From a bacterium (GTDB lineage: Bacteria; CLD3; SB21): a DNA stretch of 6,331 nt. Made by a program: the position numbers and the translations under genes. The notes under the pieces were generated by a model. That model ran no database searches. It was not told the origin of the DNA and saw only the letters and a program-made list of their open reading frames with translations. Numbering within the stretch: the stretch's first letter is position 1; each line of letters starts with the position of its first letter. The stretch is taken from NCBI GenBank assembly GCA_013360215.1, contig JABWCP010000052.1, positions 1 to 6,331 of the forward strand. Reading direction: 5' to 3'. This document shows positions 2-6,331 of this stretch, one piece after another.

Positions 2-343
2 ATTGTTTTGCTCAGTGGTTCATTGCGGTGTTTAGCTGAGCCGATGCAACGTTTTACGCAAGCCGAAGATTTGATTTGTTCGGAAACGGAAATCGTAAAC
101 AACCGATATACCGGCGAAATGAGTTCACTGCATCCGTACGGCGAAAACAAAAAGACATTAGCGATACGTTATTGTACAGATCATCAAATAGCTGAGAGAA
201 ACTGCCGGGCCTACGCCAATGAGTGGGCGGATCGTTTTCTTATGGAGGCTGTCGGAGAAGCGGTGGCCGTGGATCCGGATGAAAATTTAGAGCGACTTGC
301 ACGAATAAAAAAATGGAAACAAATTAACATATATCATGGCTAA
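2..343 (+). CDS. HAD-IB family phosphatase (SerB/PgpC-like), C-terminal part, 5' truncated by window edge
   Basis: The frame is open to the left edge, so the true start lies outside the window; the TTG at 8 is not a credible start because it falls inside a HAD core motif. Reading from base 2, the first residues (IVLLSGSL) match HAD motif II, with the conserved Ser after a hydrophobic strand. Next come a 'TG' turn (about residue 35 counted from the TTG at 8), a 'YGENK' motif III with the conserved Lys, and a motif IV region (AYANEWAD) followed by the typical ending 'EAVGEAVAVDP' and a basic tail with a Trp. This order is characteristic of subfamily IB phosphatases such as phosphoserine phosphatase and phosphatidylglycerophosphatase C. 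The motif I nucleophile (DxD) would be upstream and cannot be checked. Motif IV is odd: the first of its two usual Asp residues is Asn, while the second is kept. The stop overlaps the next start by 8 bases, so the two genes are probably translationally coupled. The substrate is unknown; beside CDP-alcohol transferases, a phosphorylated lipid head group or polyol is plausible. Confidence 0.82.
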   Translation: MVLLSGSLRCLAEPMQRFTQAEDLICSETEIVNNRYTGEMSSLHPYGENKKTLAIRYCTDHQIAERNCRAYANEWADRFLMEAVGEAVAVDPDENLERLARIKKWKQINIYHG

Positions 344-1772
344 ATCTTTTTTTCTAAAACAGGCAGCTTGGTTTAAAGATTCTTTACAGGAGTTCACTGT
401 CCCGGATGAGTTTGAAATTGACATGATAGCTCCAGTTGATGCCCCGGCATTGTCGCGGGACATGATAAAAGAGTCTATTTATCATCCCTTTGGTCCTTCG
501 CTAAAAAATTTAACCCAAGGTAAGACCAAAATTGTTTTCGTGGTTGATGATCTCGGTCGCCCGACTCCAGCGCATGATATTATTCCTTATGTTTTAGAAA
601 TTTTAAGTACCTCCGGCGTGCTTTCGCAAGATATCTCATTTATAGTAGCAACGGGATCTCATCGACAACTTTCCCGCGAGGATATGGCGCGCAAAGTCGG
701 TGCAACTATCGTTGACTCGTACCGTGTCACATGCCACGATGCATTCAAGTCACCATTAAAAGATCTCGGATATTCGAGAAATGGCTTTCCGTGTATTGCT
801 AATAAAGAGGTTGCTGAGGCTGATCTTATTATAGGTATCGGTTGTGTTATTCCTCATTCGTGTCACGGATTTGGCGGAGGTGCGAAGCTTTTTTGTCCGG
901 GTATTGCAGGTATGGAATCCATTGTCACCATGCACGGGTTTACGCCCAAACGGGGGCGAGGGAATATTGATAATCCAAAGAATGATTGGGATATGCGCTC
1001 GGCGTCGGAGGCATTTGTGGCAAAACTACCCCCGATTTTTCTCATTAATGTTGTCATGAATTCACAACGCGAAATAAGCGCTATTTTTTCAGGATCTATC
1101 CAGAACGTTTTTGAAGCCGCGCGAATAAAAGCGTCTGAAGTTTATAGAACAGAAATTTTGGAAGATCAAAAAACAAAATATGATGTGATTTTGATTAATG
1201 CTTACCCACTGGACTCAGATCCGGTGCAGTCTGCTAAAAGTCCTTGGGTGAAAAACATGTTTCCAGATACAATTCAAATTCATATCAACTCGTCTGCGGA
1301 TGGTGTTGATTATCATGGTTGGAAAGTATTCAGGCGAAGTAATTGGTTCACCTTGGTTGTAGCGTCTATCGCTGAGGGCCTAACATTTCCAATAGTTCCC
1401 AAATTTTTTAATAATATTTCATCTTGGCCGATCATTCGTTTCCTCCGAGAACATTTGGTCCGACTGCTTGTACGAATATCACATGCGGATTTTGACACTT
1501 ATTTATCGTGTCGAGTTGCGATTGAAAAGAGTAAGTCAAGAGAAGCATCGTCAGTATCAGGCCCGGATAGAAACCGTACCCCTTGGGTTTATTCAGAGTA
1601 TTTTACGGATGCCGAATTCAAAAAAAAATACAGTAAAGGTACTCTATTTAAAGATTGGAAATCTGTAGTTGAAGGCATAAAAAAGTACTATCCCAAAGCC
1701 AAAATAGCTGTAGTCACTTGCGCACCGGTTCAAATTCCTGTGGTGAAAGGATCTCATGATAGCACTCATTGA
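336..1772 (+). CDS. LarA-like (DUF2088) nickel-pincer-nucleotide racemase/epimerase homologue
   Basis: This 478-residue protein carries the lactate-racemase N-terminal domain. Visible motifs are D72xxR75 in 'VVDDLGRPTP', 'ATGSHR' with H109, 'IPH' with H174, 'GGGAKLFCPG' with K184, 'TMH' with H200, and QxxK (Q298, K301). From memory, Lactobacillus plantarum LarA uses D72, R75, H108, H174, K184, H200, Q295 and K298; K184 carries the pincer nucleotide and H200 binds nickel. The match is near-exact in position, so cofactor binding is likely intact. Known relatives racemise lactate, malate or phenyllactate or epimerise sugar acids; the substrate here is unknown. The protein is about 50 residues longer than LarA (about 425), with the extra length mainly near the C-terminus. 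The start at 336 has no good ribosome-binding site (the nearest GGA is 18 bases upstream) and overlaps the HAD gene, which points to coupled translation. Activity would need LarB, LarC and LarE encoded elsewhere. I give no gene symbol because lactate specificity is not shown. Confidence 0.9.
   Translation: MAKSFFLKQAAWFKDSLQEFTVPDEFEIDMIAPVDAPALSRDMIKESIYHPFGPSLKNLTQGKTKIVFVVDDLGRPTPAHDIIPYVLEILSTSGVLSQDISFIVATGSHRQLSREDMARKVGATIVDSYRVTCHDAFKSPLKDLGYSRNGFPCIANKEVAEADLIIGIGCVIPHSCHGFGGGAKLFCPGIAGMESIVTMHGFTPKRGRGNIDNPKNDWDMRSASEAFVAKLPPIFLINVVMNSQREISAIFSGSIQNVFEAARIKASEVYRTEILEDQKTKYDVILINAYPLDSDPVQSAKSPWVKNMFPDTIQIHINSSADGVDYHGWKVFRRSNWFTLVVASIAEGLTFPIVPKFFNNISSWPIIRFLREHLVRLLVRISHADFDTYLSCRVAIEKSKSREASSVSGPDRNRTPWVYSEYFTDAEFKKKYSKGTLFKDWKSVVEGIKKYYPKAKIAVVTCAPVQIPVVKGSHDSTH
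1745..1751 (+). promoter_or_regulatory. Ribosome-binding site for the first transferase-like gene
   Basis: GAAAGGA lies four bases before the ATG at 1756, inside the end of the LarA-like gene. It supports that ATG as the start and re-initiation across the 17-base overlap. Confidence 0.55.
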
Positions 1773-2946
1773 TGCACGTAATACTGATAGTTTCAGCAAA
1801 CTTTTTGATATCACCTTGATTGAACGCATTCTTCGTCAGGTGTGGGTGGTCGGAGTTCGTGAAGCGTATCTGTACGCGCCTAAACAATCAGTAAATCTTA
1901 AAGGGGAATTTATAAAAAAATTTCCTATGAAATTTGGCGCGATTCGTGCATTAGATGAATTACCAAAAGATCAAAACGATGTTATGATTTTTGACGGTTC
2001 GGCTATTTATGATGATAGGATTATAGATGCTTTAACAAAATCTGAAAACGATGTTTCGATTATTGATGGACTTAATCCTGATACGCCCATAGCCGTTCGA
2101 TACACTAATAATCAAACGTGGTCAAGTGTAACTATTAACGATAAAAAATTCACAGAAGTATTCAAAAGTTCGACCATAAAAGATATACAAACAATGGATA
2201 CGTATGTCAAATTTTTACGTAAATCATACATCCCTACGTTACGTTTTGTAAAAGCAGAAGATAACCTGCGAACCATTGAGAATGATCTTTTCGAAAAAAC
2301 ATTTAAATCAGGTTTGGAGTGGATTGCAATATACGGGTATAAGATCCCGGTTCGCGAAATGACGAGATTATGTGCGAAAACATCCGTTACGCCGAATCAG
2401 ATTACAGCCGTAGCCATATTCTGCCGATGGGCGTCTATACCTTTGTTATTTGGAGGTTGGCTTGCGCTCGGACTAAGTTTGATTGTATTATTTGTTGTTT
2501 TAGATTCTTTGGATGGCAAACTTGCCCGAATGACGTTTCGATTTAGTGAACATGCTGACTGGATTGATCATGGCTCCGTACTACCCACACGTCTTGGCTG
2601 GTATGCGGGGTTGGGATGGCACTACAGTTCTGGTGTATGGTCGTCACAAGCGGGTATGCTAACTATCATAACATTAGTTTGTATAGTTTTGGATGATCTC
2701 AATTGGGCTGTTGCCAAACGAATTTTTAAACGTACTCTTTTTGATATTACTGATTTTGATGCAAAAGCGCATTTGTTTACTCATCGCCGCAACGATATGT
2801 TTTTGATGCTTAGCGGTTATCTTATGGGGTTAGGGTTGTATTCGTTTTATTTAATTTGCGGGTGGGTCGTGGTCACGTGGATCTGGCATTGCACGCGAAT
2901 TGTCTATTTATCGAACGATAGTAGCTTGTCAAAAGAAAGAAATTAA
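1756..2946 (+). CDS. Nucleotidyltransferase-like / CDP-alcohol phosphatidyltransferase-like membrane protein, degenerate active site (paralogue A)
   Basis: This 396-residue protein has two domains. Residues 1 to about 165 resemble a GT-A nucleotidyltransferase: strand 'IALIDA', helix 'TLIERILRQV', and 'VMIFDGSAIYDD', where D80 sits at the usual metal-binding strand end. The GxGxR nucleotide loop is missing. Residues about 185 to 215 form the linker 'PVREMTRL...VTPNQIT', typical of CDP-alcohol transferases before their first helix. About six membrane segments follow (near 216-235, 237-253, 276-290, 300-318, 347-366 and 367-385). The signature reads D250-SL-D253-G254-KL-A257-R258, then after eight residues A267 instead of Gly, D271 at the third Asp, and V275 where the fourth, catalytic-base Asp should be. 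'DHG' after the third Asp and 'HLFTHRRN' near residue 340 look like features of one subfamily. It overlaps the LarA-like gene by 17 bases and sits 17 bases before its paralogue. It may be a non-catalytic partner, a transferase using another base, or a lipid-binding protein. Confidence 0.85.
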   Translation: MIALIDARNTDSFSKLFDITLIERILRQVWVVGVREAYLYAPKQSVNLKGEFIKKFPMKFGAIRALDELPKDQNDVMIFDGSAIYDDRIIDALTKSENDVSIIDGLNPDTPIAVRYTNNQTWSSVTINDKKFTEVFKSSTIKDIQTMDTYVKFLRKSYIPTLRFVKAEDNLRTIENDLFEKTFKSGLEWIAIYGYKIPVREMTRLCAKTSVTPNQITAVAIFCRWASIPLLFGGWLALGLSLIVLFVVLDSLDGKLARMTFRFSEHADWIDHGSVLPTRLGWYAGLGWHYSSGVWSSQAGMLTIITLVCIVLDDLNWAVAKRIFKRTLFDITDFDAKAHLFTHRRNDMFLMLSGYLMGLGLYSFYLICGWVVVTWIWHCTRIVYLSNDSSLSKERN

Positions 2947-2963
2947 TAAATCGAGATCTAAAA

Positions 2964-4178
2964 TTGTTGAAATTAACAGCCCATATATTACTTACGAATG
3001 ATTTTGAGCAATATGCTCACCGAGAGGTTTATGGAGTAACATTCGTTGAAAGGCTTATTCGGCAGTGTAAAGAATTAAAAGTGCATTCCATTAATGTATG
3101 GAGTGAAAAAATTATGTTTGTTCACTCGGATGTATACTGTCGCCCGTTCAATGAATGGAATCAATATATGTCTCAACTGCGAGTTCGTGAAGAAGAGCGA
3201 ATTATTATTATTGATTCTAATATCATCGCGGATGATCATTTGATCAAATATCTGGTCTATCACACGGGTTCGTTGGCAATTACAAATCAGTACCACATAG
3301 TTGGAGTAAATACTTCCAGATTGGCTAAAAATAACACCGATGTTTTTTCCTTTGAAACCGCCAAGAAGTATGTGGCTAATTTTGATCCAAAAGTGATAGA
3401 GCCGAATGAAATGAATAAGTACGTTCATGAGTTACGTTTGCAATTCGTGCCTTACTTTTTCGTTTATACGCATGCTTTGGACATTCGTCAAATGCAAAAC
3501 ATCATGTATGAAGCTAACTTTAAGGGTACACTTGATTTTATTGCTACCTACGTGTATAAATATCCGGTTCGAGAGATTACGAAATTTTTAAGCCGCCATT
3601 CTTGGGTGACCCCGGATTTTCTTACTATGCTGAGTATCGTCAGTTCGTTTGTTGTTCCGTTGCTATTAGCTTTCGGTGAAATGGGATGGGCCGTTTTGGT
3701 GGGTTGGCTCATGTTCATTTTTGATTCCGTGGACGGGAAATTGGCGCGACTGACCGTTCGGCTTAACCCGACGATGGGCGTGATCGAACACGCTACGAGT
3801 GCCCCAGCTATTTTTTTGTGGTTTGCCGGTCTGGGCTGGTATTTTTCAAATGGGCAACTTTTAGAGTTTACCCATCCGGCTTCGGCTACGGCGTGGTCGC
3901 TGATGGCGCTGTATTGGTTAGATAAAGGGGTCAATGGAATATTCAAACCGCGCTTCGGTATTGATTTGTATAACTATGCTCCGATAGATCGTTTCTTTCA
4001 CCTTTTCGCCTGTCGCCGCGCGATTATACATCTTATCATTACCGTGGGGTGGGCGACCAGCTATCGCGATGAAGCGTTTTACTTTTTAGGTATTTGGATG
4101 GTCATCAGTTTTATGTTTCATTTGTTTCGTTGCGGATGGATTTTAGCTACGGACGAACCTCAAACTGTGGCCGAATAA
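2964..4178 (+). CDS. Nucleotidyltransferase-like / CDP-alcohol phosphatidyltransferase-like membrane protein, degenerate active site (paralogue B)
   Basis: This 404-residue protein is a tandem paralogue of the preceding gene. The heads align ('TFVERLIRQ' here, 'TLIERILRQ' there; 'IIIIDSNIIADD' here, 'VMIFDGSAIYDD' there), as do the linkers ('YKYPVREITKFLS...VTPDFLT') and the segment between the AR of the signature and 'AGLGW', which is the same length with no gaps. The signature is D254-SV-D257-G258-KL-A261-R262, then M271 for Gly, E275 for the third Asp and S279 for the fourth. It is therefore even further from the canonical site than its neighbour. About six membrane segments lie near 219-236, 241-255, 281-297, 308-322, 353-366 and 372-390. 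'HLFACRR' (346-352) matches the same motif in paralogue A. The start is a TTG at 2964 (a second TTG follows at 2967); no ATG or GTG lies between the previous stop and this point, and the N-terminus aligns with paralogue A. The ribosome-binding site is weak (GAG near 2953). The nucleotide loop GxGxR is absent. Substrate and activity are unknown. Confidence 0.85.
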   Translation: MLKLTAHILLTNDFEQYAHREVYGVTFVERLIRQCKELKVHSINVWSEKIMFVHSDVYCRPFNEWNQYMSQLRVREEERIIIIDSNIIADDHLIKYLVYHTGSLAITNQYHIVGVNTSRLAKNNTDVFSFETAKKYVANFDPKVIEPNEMNKYVHELRLQFVPYFFVYTHALDIRQMQNIMYEANFKGTLDFIATYVYKYPVREITKFLSRHSWVTPDFLTMLSIVSSFVVPLLLAFGEMGWAVLVGWLMFIFDSVDGKLARLTVRLNPTMGVIEHATSAPAIFLWFAGLGWYFSNGQLLEFTHPASATAWSLMALYWLDKGVNGIFKPRFGIDLYNYAPIDRFFHLFACRRAIIHLIITVGWATSYRDEAFYFLGIWMVISFMFHLFRCGWILATDEPQTVAE

Positions 4179-4219
4179 ATACACTGTGTGATTATTGCTA
4201 CAAAAAAGAAATTAATACC

Positions 4220-4236
4220 AATAGTTTAAACCTATT
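4220..4236. repeat. Imperfect palindrome before the canonical transferase gene
   Basis: AATAGTTTAAACCTATT has a perfect 8-base core (GTTTAAAC) flanked by AATA and TATT, with one extra C on the right side. It ends three bases before the GTG at 4239. It could be an operator or a start-region hairpin, but short AT-rich palindromes also arise by chance. Confidence 0.25.
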
Positions 4237-4238
4237 CA

Positions 4239-5663
4239 GTGATGATTCAAAACGCGATAATAATTGCAATAAAATCAACAAACGACGCACCGGATTTTGA
4301 TACGTTGTACGGCGGAGAGACGTTGATCGGGCGGGCGCTAGTGGCGATGAGTAAATCCGGCATGAAATATGTAACGATAATATGCCGAATGTCGGATCGT
4401 ACACTCATTGAACGTTGTGTTAAAGAAGTGGATGCCGAACGCATCAGTGTATCTCCTACGATCCATAGTATGGATGATGACGTAAATTTAAGTAAAGCCG
4501 TTAATGAGATTACAAAATCATCAGAAAGCACATGGATGCTGATGACATATGATAAAATCATTCATCCGACTTTCATTTTGCCGGTACGCGAATGCGTACA
4601 AACGCCGGCATTGATTACGTATAACGGCGTTATGCGTCAAGGGGATAAGGTTATTTTTGGCGAAGAGATGGCGCCCAAGTTTCAAACCCAATTTCAGGAT
4701 GTTTCGATTTTTGATATGGTATCTGTACAGGATAATAAAGTGAAAACATGGAATACAGCCGACGCGCCGCACTTCTCAGCCGGAATTTTAGTCGCTCGTA
4801 ACGCGGATCTTGTTTTAGCAGAAACTTGGCAAAGTATATCTGAACTCATAAAGTTTTTTATAACGAAAGAATTATTGAAAACGGTTTCTGTCAGCAACGG
4901 TTGGTGTATGCCGGTCAATAAATCTATTCCACCGTCGGTAATAAAAAACGTTTTTTGGAAAATGGCTTTTAAAGAAATCAGCGGAGAATTTTCTAAAGCT
5001 GTGAATAGTAAACTATCCAAACCGCTTACATTTTGGTTTAGCGCGCACCAGTACAAACCGGATACGATCAGTAATATGTCGCTCGTGCTTTTTATTGTAG
5101 CGTCGGGGTTTTTGTTAATACCGGAATACTGGGCTATGGTCGTTTTTGCCGTAGTTTGGCAGTTTTCAGCCGGCGTGCTGGATCGTTGCGATGGCGAAGT
5201 GGCACGTATGCGTAATCATGAATCCGAGGCCGGCGGAAAATTTGACATGATCGTGGATGACTTACGATTTGCTCTACCTCTGATGGCGTTAGGTGTGGCG
5301 TGTTCCCTGGAATTACCGGATGTGCGATACGCCATTGTAGCTGCGATCACGCTTGCGGGGAGTTTTGCTATTACATTCTTTGAACAAGCTACAATGCGCC
5401 GTTTTGGTTATGTGAGTCGCCAAAAACTGAACGTAGATTATCTGAAAGCCAAAGGTGATACCAGCCGCTTCAGCACCACAATGAAAAAACTCCAACCCGT
5501 ATTCAAAGGTGATATTCGTACTTTTTATGTGTTTTTGCTGACTTTTCTCGGCGAGAAAACCATTATTTTTTGGGTATTAGTGTTTTATCATGTATTTGTA
5601 AGCGCTCTTGCTTTATTCGGTGCGCTGACGTTTCCGCGATTAATAGCGAAAATGAAAAAGTGA
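4239..5663 (+). CDS. IPCT/DIPPS-like bifunctional-type protein: nucleotidyltransferase-like head and canonical CDP-alcohol phosphatidyltransferase
   Basis: This protein has 474 residues from the GTG at 4239, or 473 from the ATG at 4242, which is the more conventional start; neither has a clear ribosome-binding site. Residues 1 to about 240 are a GT-A nucleotidyltransferase-like head: strand 'AIIIAI', 'GGETLIGRAL' (25-34), 'YDKIIHP' with D105 at the metal-binding strand end, and 'FSAGILVARN' (179-188). The usual GxGxR loop and following Pro-Lys are not visible, so cytidylyl transfer is doubtful. Residues about 265 to 470 are the membrane transferase with about six helices. Its signature is complete: D315-RC-D318-G319-EV-A322-R323, eight residues, G332, D336 and D340. 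In this family the first three Asp bind metal and the fourth is the general base, so this domain should be active and form a phosphodiester from a CDP-alcohol. Length and order fit inositol-1-phosphate cytidylyltransferase/DIPP synthase, but the true alcohol cannot be told. It follows paralogue B by 60 bases and is probably the last gene of the operon. Confidence 0.88.
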   Translation: MMIQNAIIIAIKSTNDAPDFDTLYGGETLIGRALVAMSKSGMKYVTIICRMSDRTLIERCVKEVDAERISVSPTIHSMDDDVNLSKAVNEITKSSESTWMLMTYDKIIHPTFILPVRECVQTPALITYNGVMRQGDKVIFGEEMAPKFQTQFQDVSIFDMVSVQDNKVKTWNTADAPHFSAGILVARNADLVLAETWQSISELIKFFITKELLKTVSVSNGWCMPVNKSIPPSVIKNVFWKMAFKEISGEFSKAVNSKLSKPLTFWFSAHQYKPDTISNMSLVLFIVASGFLLIPEYWAMVVFAVVWQFSAGVLDRCDGEVARMRNHESEAGGKFDMIVDDLRFALPLMALGVACSLELPDVRYAIVAAITLAGSFAITFFEQATMRRFGYVSRQKLNVDYLKAKGDTSRFSTTMKKLQPVFKGDIRTFYVFLLTFLGEKTIIFWVLVFYHVFVSALALFGALTFPRLIAKMKK

Positions 5664-5777
5664 AATTATTCATCTTATTTGATTGGAAAACAGTTTACCC
5701 CCTTTTAATATGAGGATGCGTCAATTTATAGTTTCTTTTAAAATACCGGTTAATACATAAAAGTATGAAAACAAAGT

Positions 5778-5783
5778 GAGGGG
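5778..5783 (+). promoter_or_regulatory. Ribosome-binding site for the DUF3047 gene
   Basis: GAGGGG lies four bases before the ATG at 5788 and selects that start, which also gives a well-formed signal peptide. Confidence 0.6.
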
Positions 5784-5787
5784 ATAT

Positions 5788-6331
5788 ATGCGCTTCATGC
5801 AAGGTGTAATATTTACATTGAGTGCGTTGATGGTGATCGTGTGGATGGAGCCGGTTTCAAAGGCCGAAGCAGGTGGTGATTCTATTTTGATAGAAGATTT
5901 TACTTCGTCCAATACGGGTCAATTTCCGAAAGGTTGGGGATGGTTGGACGGGACGTCGGTTAAAAAGATAAATGAAGCTAAACCCGGTGAAGTACCGTAT
6001 GTGGTGATGGAAGAAAACGGTAATAAATTTTTACGTGCTGATGACAAAGGACAAGCTATCACGATCGTGTCTGATAAAAAATGGAATATCAAAAAATATC
6101 AATGCATCCAATGGCGTTGGCGTGTCAATCAATTTCCTACCGGGGCCAATGAATATGCCAAAGGCAAAACTGATAACGCGGCCAGCCTGTATATCAGTTA
6201 TTATGTGAGTTTTATCGGCATACCGCGCAGTATCAAGTATATTTGGAGTAATACGCTTCCGGAATGCGAAACTTTCCGAAAAGATGGTACAGGAAAGGCG
6301 ACGAATATAGTCGTGGAAAGCGGCACCTCCA
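5788..6331 (+). CDS. Exported DUF3047 domain protein, 3' truncated by window edge
   Basis: The reading frame starts at an ATG behind a good ribosome-binding site and stays open to the right edge (181 codons seen). Residues 1 to 28 form a Sec signal peptide: a short basic start (MRF), a hydrophobic core (about 7-20) and a likely signal peptidase I site after 'AEA'. The mature part shows DUF3047 hallmarks: 'FPKGWGW' near the start, 'KFLRADDKGQAIT', 'IQWRWRVNQFPTG' (the Trp-rich strand), 'TDNAASLYISY', then 'IKYIWSNTLPECE' and 'IVVESGT'. The family has no established biochemical role that I know of; the strand-rich pattern suggests a periplasmic beta-sandwich, possibly ligand-binding. A 124-base gap separates it from the transferase operon, so it may have its own promoter. 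Any link with lipid synthesis rests only on proximity. Confidence 0.8.
   Translation, partial: MRFMQGVIFTLSALMVIVWMEPVSKAEAGGDSILIEDFTSSNTGQFPKGWGWLDGTSVKKINEAKPGEVPYVVMEENGNKFLRADDKGQAITIVSDKKWNIKKYQCIQWRWRVNQFPTGANEYAKGKTDNAASLYISYYVSFIGIPRSIKYIWSNTLPECETFRKDGTGKATNIVVESGTS

Follow-up and report, generated by a model that had tools for sequence, protein, structure and literature searches.

The window, that is the whole stretch of DNA analysed here, is 6331 bases long and represents one entire contig (C52) of a 3.7-Mb draft genome. It harbours six genes, all on the + strand, in the order HAD, LarA-like, A, B, C, and DUF3047:

2..343, +, HAD-IB family phosphatase, C-terminal part (PF12710, E = 3.8e-8; full-length orthologue L037:6322-6963)
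336..1772, +, LarA-like protein (lactate racemase N-terminal domain; PF09861, E = 5.7e-46)
1756..2946, +, A, cytidylyltransferase-like domain (about residues 1-190) plus CDP-alcohol phosphotransferase (CDP-AP) domain
2964..4178, +, B, two-domain architecture as in A (residues numbered from the start at 2964)
4239..5663, +, C, cytidylyltransferase-like domain without the nucleotide-binding signature plus CDP-AP domain
5776..6331, +, DUF3047 protein with a signal-like N-terminus, truncated by the contig end (PF11249, E = 4.3e-15)

The open reading frames A, B, and C were confirmed at the coordinates that an earlier note on this sequence had given. They are separated by small gaps, and the LarA-like gene shares 17 bases with the start of A. 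Orthologues of the LarA-like gene adjoin A in two other genomes (G003 and G005). The nickel-insertion family LarC (PF01969) was not found in the window's genome, though it is present in three relatives, and the LarA-like protein (336-1772) may act without the nickel pincer cofactor. In G003 (L037:12613-18809), a second C-type CDP-AP, a BcrAD/DUF2229 CoA-dehydratase activase, and a 457-aa protein are encoded between C and the DUF3047 gene.

The window is only part of a larger gene cluster. The HAD gene is split, with its N-terminal half at the start of contig C36 (minus strand) and its C-terminal half on C52; since this gene is shared between their ends, the two contigs are very probably neighbours. 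C36 encodes one single-domain and two two-domain CDP-APs, so that the wider locus contains six such proteins, as well as a flippase, an Fe-ADH, NTases, a TPP enzyme, and a PEP mutase-NTase fusion with the motif EDKLFPKTNS. Positions 2815-12214 of this contig (L010) form a phosphonate-type cluster consisting of the PEP mutase-NTase fusion, a TPP decarboxylase-like enzyme, the Fe-ADH, NTases, and the two two-domain CDP-APs, suggesting that a CMP-phosphonate (possibly of hydroxyethylphosphonate) is transferred by the CDP-APs. Phosphonate genes were not found inside the window itself. In relatives, the gene neighbours include a stand-alone NTase, a polysaccharide-type flippase, an MMPL transporter, an MlaC-DUF3047 fusion, and an outer-membrane efflux channel. 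The export-type neighbours in both the window's cluster, where the flippase is of the Wzx type, and its relatives suggest that the product is perhaps a lipid or glycan with a head group destined for the cell surface. The MlaC-DUF3047 fusion of a KSB1 relative (L064:13378-14631), which adjoins the MMPL transporter, hints that DUF3047 proteins are involved in moving lipids to the outer membrane.

We compared A, B, and C with the full CDP-AP signature, D1xxD2G1xxAR...G2xxxD3xxxD4 (the aspartates are referred to as Asp1 to Asp4 and the glycines as Gly1 and Gly2). All three proteins match PF01066 above its curated cut-off of 22 bits (A 22.7, B 28.4, C 39.4), but only C contains the complete signature (D315-RC-D318-GEVAR-MRNHESEA-G-GKF-D336-MIV-D340). 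Protein A reads DSLDGKLAR-MTFRFSEH-A267-DWI-D271-HGS-V275: Asp1 (D250), Asp2 (D253), Asp3 (D271), and the following His (H272) are in place, while Ala267 and Val275 occupy the positions of Gly2 and Asp4. In B (DSVDGKLAR-LTVRLNPT-M-GVI-E-HAT-S279), Gly2 is replaced by Met, Asp3 by Glu, and Asp4 by Ser279; the His next to Asp3 is again retained. Re-reading of the open reading frames and motifs thus reproduced every residue and number of the earlier note for all three proteins, including Val275 and Ser279. An Asp hidden by an alignment shift was ruled out, as neither A nor B has one nearby downstream. Since both lack the full signature, they were classed as variants within the PF01066 superfamily and not as canonical members. 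The related motif of CHPT1/CEPT1-type enzymes, G2ExxD3HxxD4, is likewise incomplete in all three: A has D268 and H272 without Gly2 and Asp4, B has the His alone, and both the His and the acid are missing from C. C belongs to a subfamily other than that of A and B, nearer to IPCT-DIPPS. Single-domain CDP-APs from the same genome were intact in all five cases in which the motif was read, and so is the two-domain protein at 10271-11530 on C36. The other two-domain protein of that contig (L010:9090-10262, minus strand) has His at the Asp4 position and Lys instead of the usual His after Asp3. Judged by these residues, it appears to be the most degenerate member and a stronger pseudoenzyme candidate than A or B.

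The two-domain architecture proposed before was borne out by AlphaFold2 models (mean pLDDT 91.9 for A and 90.1 for B). Over their full length, these predicted models match AF2299 (Z scores 24.4 and 23.6 for A and B, respectively) and IPCT-DIPPS (25.2 and 22.3). The CDP-AP fold of both models is supported by comparison with 4o6n, 4mnd, 5d92, and 6h5a, and the N-terminal domain matches cytidylyltransferases, e.g. IPCT (2xme) and PntC (6pd2). Sequence alignments to the PDB chains end before the fifth helix.

Loss of Asp4 is not a peculiarity of this strain. All nine genomes analysed from the window's class contain relatives of A, and in the window's family all seven genomes encode at least one Asp4-less protein, with Val, Ser, or Thr at position 4 of the A-type proteins and Ser, combined with Glu at Asp3, in the B-type proteins. 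The residue changes of A and B are found again in orthologues that are about 40-60% identical, which excludes chance or error. The alignment of homologues that had been set beforehand as a check therefore argues against a strain-level loss: close homologues also lack Asp at position 4. For the wider distribution, genome contigs were scanned with a pattern covering the first half of the signature only, and hence unbiased for the second half, which yielded 80 loci. Among these were nine further Asp4-less proteins with Met at Gly2, Glu at Asp3, and Ala at Asp4, from records labelled Latescibacterota, Handelsmanbacteria, Gemmatimonadota, or unclassified, and four from KSB1/Calditrichaeota with Gly at Asp4. 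Asp4-intact relatives (DHGLD and similar) were found in Rhodospirillaceae, Burkholderiales, deltaproteobacteria, and others. Because conservation of the first half is partly given by construction in these loci, it was judged on a set collected by whole-protein similarity instead. In its 19 sequences, including the 15 without Asp4, Asp1, Asp2, Gly1, Ala, and Arg are invariant. Five records from Alphaproteobacteria and Burkholderiales (L083, L090, L103, L106, L129) contain two divergent intact A/B-type paralogues (DTVDGKLAR and DSVDGKLAR), located a few kb apart on opposite strands. Three MAG records, L059, L089, and L055, carry the labels Gemmatimonas phototrophica, Klebsiella pneumoniae, and Bacteroidetes, respectively; their genes resemble those of other lineages, and these labels look doubtful.

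Within the A/B-type family, 30 of the 92 sequences lack Asp4. The His following Asp3 is kept in 29 of these 30, the protein at C36:9090 being the sole exception among all 92, whereas it is absent from C-type proteins. As this His also occurs in the Asp4-intact sister groups, inheritance accounts for part of its conservation. The nine A-type proteins share A267, D268, P277, R279, and D347 alongside Ser, Thr, or Val at 275, and in none of the other clades does R279 or D347 prevail at its position. In the KSB1 proteins, both those that have Asp4 and those that lack it, an Asp follows one turn further on, at the position of R279. Taken together, relatives from several phyla share the loss of Asp4 with the rest of the site preserved, which argues for an old, selected variant and not for decay.

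The earlier note had treated A and B as two separate breakages. This was not upheld by a phylogenetic tree of 64 sequences calculated without the motif columns: A, B, and the Latescibacterota-type proteins fall into one supported clade (99/96), so that separate breakage was rejected in favour of a single ancient loss of Asp4 followed by duplication, which would explain both proteins. The KSB1 group is placed separately, and joining the two Asp4-less groups was rejected (AU p = 1.8e-5); Asp4 was thus lost independently in KSB1/Calditrichota. A quicker tree of 108 rows gave the same two losses, and placed the long-branched C36:9090 protein and an extra paralogue from G002 in the first clade with weak support.

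Selection was estimated from pairs of G003, G005, and G006 alone, because comparisons with the window's genome are saturated at synonymous sites. For the membrane domain, dN/dS was 0.11 for A, 0.05 for a second A-type paralogue (A2), and 0.09-0.13 for B, compared to 0.07-0.10 for the intact C and C2. Constraint is weaker in the N-terminal domains (0.14-0.36). The Asp4-less membrane domains are therefore under purifying selection comparable to that of C. The claim that A and B are selected and not randomly decayed gains weight from these values (0.05-0.13 vs 0.07-0.10 for C) and from conservation across genera and phyla. Random decay or a strain-level loss of two redundant copies could be suspected as the paralogues sit in the same cluster. 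But several phylum-level groups share the conserved loss, and purifying selection acts on the genes; cross-phylum conservation, tree, and dN/dS together refute this explanation, to which we assign hardly any probability.

The function of A and B depends on the role of Asp4. The eight signature residues have been termed absolutely conserved, and in PIP synthases Asp4 is regarded as the catalytic base (PMC4634129). In Mtb PgsA1 (PMC6506517) and CHPT1 (PMC10182977), it acts as a ligand of the second metal. For CHPT1, His133/Glu129 is the proposed base and is needed for activity, and Ala at any of the signature Asp residues, Asp4 included, leaves less than 20% activity (PMC10182977). The CEPT1 variant D158A (Asp4) retains about 15%, and here the base is proposed to be His155, directly after Asp3, or His197 (PMC10156783). 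As A and B retain the His after Asp3, the loss of Asp4 deprives them of a metal ligand, whereas the base need not be missing. The earlier argument that both proteins lost their catalytic base and hence are pseudoenzymes consequently stands only in its first part: Asp4 is absent, but the step from a missing Asp4 to a missing base is unsupported, given that the base proposed for CHPT1/CEPT1-type enzymes is the His kept in 29 of 30 Asp4-less proteins.

We consider it most likely, with a probability of slightly below one half, that A and B remain catalytic in a modified way, relying on a His as base and on a second metal site that has changed. They would bind a CDP-alcohol or CMP-phosphonate supplied by a separate cytidylyltransferase and pass the phospho-alcohol to a membrane acceptor. 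The His after Asp3 would serve as general base, paired with D268 in A, and one Mg2+ together with a changed second site would substitute for the usual two-metal site. This second site could be formed by S/T/V275 with R279 and D347 in A, and involve the Glu in place of Asp3 in B. Asp347 is a candidate stand-in for Asp4 in A; it has no counterpart in B. The product would be a lipid or glycan head group (phospho- or phosphonolipid) exported to the cell surface. Against continued catalysis, the lost Asp4 would also have been a ligand of the second Mg2+, and the His-acid dyad is complete in A only, B having Gly at the Glu129 position. Moreover, the Asp4-to-Asn variant of MtPIPS (D93N) has nearly lost activity and still binds its substrate (PMC4634129), which speaks against catalysis without Asp4 and fits a role confined to binding.

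Such a role is the main rival: A and B may be selected, non-catalytic partners of C that bind CDP-alcohol without turnover, serving as heteromer, allosteric, or donor-presenting subunits. We regard this as possible but rather doubtful. CDP-APs are dimeric, and the second protomer of PgsA1 extends residues into the active site (PMC6506517), although the protomers of CEPT1 are apparently independent (PMC10156783). B adjoins C in G000 and G002-G006, and outside the window's family a C-like protein with intact Asp4 is encoded in 12 of 13 Asp4-less genomes, in seven of them within several kb of the Asp4-less gene. However, the C-like gene is on a separate contig in four Asp4-less genomes, and a C-like protein is also present in eight of nine FCB-type genomes whose A/B-type protein has Asp4; among the other Asp4-intact genomes searched, 12 of 14 are without one. 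C-like pairing thus tracks lineage and not the loss of Asp4, and alone is no argument for a pseudoenzyme. The opposite argument, that four Asp4-less genomes have no intact two-domain partner, was rejected: each of the four proved to encode a C-like protein when searched with a C-type profile, and the objection to a heteromer from a missing partner was dropped. Retention of the metal- and CDP-binding residues and of the His also speaks against mere binding. A literature search for CDP-AP pseudoenzymes or inactive CDP-APs found none, which does not prove that none exist.

It is less likely still that the chemistry of A and B could do without a base, either with an anionic acceptor (phosphate, phosphonate, or carboxylate) or in hydrolysis or exchange of a CDP-alcohol. 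Retention of Asp1 to Asp3 with loss of position 4 and the clade-specific Arg279 gained by A, one helical turn below 275, are compatible with this idea, and the cluster does contain LarA-like (2-hydroxy-acid) and phosphonate genes. But the conserved His would be left unexplained, and in most relatives outside the window's family the LarA-like gene is non-adjacent. For the group as a whole, we put at about even odds that it is an ancient natural CDP-AP subfamily without Asp4, in which position 4 was lost at least twice and which relies on a His as base together with a remodelled metal site, or else performs another reaction.

Asp4 is the usual candidate for the base, whereas the eukaryotic structures favour a His. 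With naturally occurring Asp4-less proteins and their Asp4-intact sister groups at hand, both the identity of the base and the need for a second metal become testable. In addition, the Asp4-less proteins mark a cluster in several uncultivated phyla that apparently builds a surface-directed phospho-head-group.

With respect to known systems, the PEP mutase-NTase fusion, TPP-dependent enzyme, and Fe-ADH of C36 follow the CMP-phosphonate logic of the PntC-type phosphonate cytidylyltransferase pathway; in a term search of PMC6697681, CDP-APs did not come up as the transferase of that pathway. IPCT-DIPPS (PDB 4mnd; NF041135) shares the two-domain build and is the top structural match of A. NF041135 is also the closest NCBIfam match of C (E = 8.7e-12), yet far below the cut-off: the curated score, which spans the two domains, is 580 bits, compared with 44.7 for C, 24.7 for B, and 17.3 for A. 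The NTase signature (AAGxGxR-like) of the first domain is absent from all 108 tree sequences; A, B, and C have lost it, whereas a C-type relative from KSB1 (L064:3454-5118) retains it. AF2299 of Archaeoglobus fulgidus (PDB 4o6m/4o6n/4q7c) combines a cytidylyltransferase-like domain with a six-helix CDP-AP domain, as do A and B, but in the alignment has Asp at position 4, in contrast to Val in A and Ser, plus Glu at Asp3, in B. CHPT1 and CEPT1 (PDB 8ero, 8gyw) differ from A and B in their ten helices, the absence of a cytidylyltransferase-like domain, and the presence of Asp4. Like A and B, however, they have a His right after Asp3, and the position of CHPT1 Glu129 is occupied by an acidic residue in A (D268) and by Gly in B.
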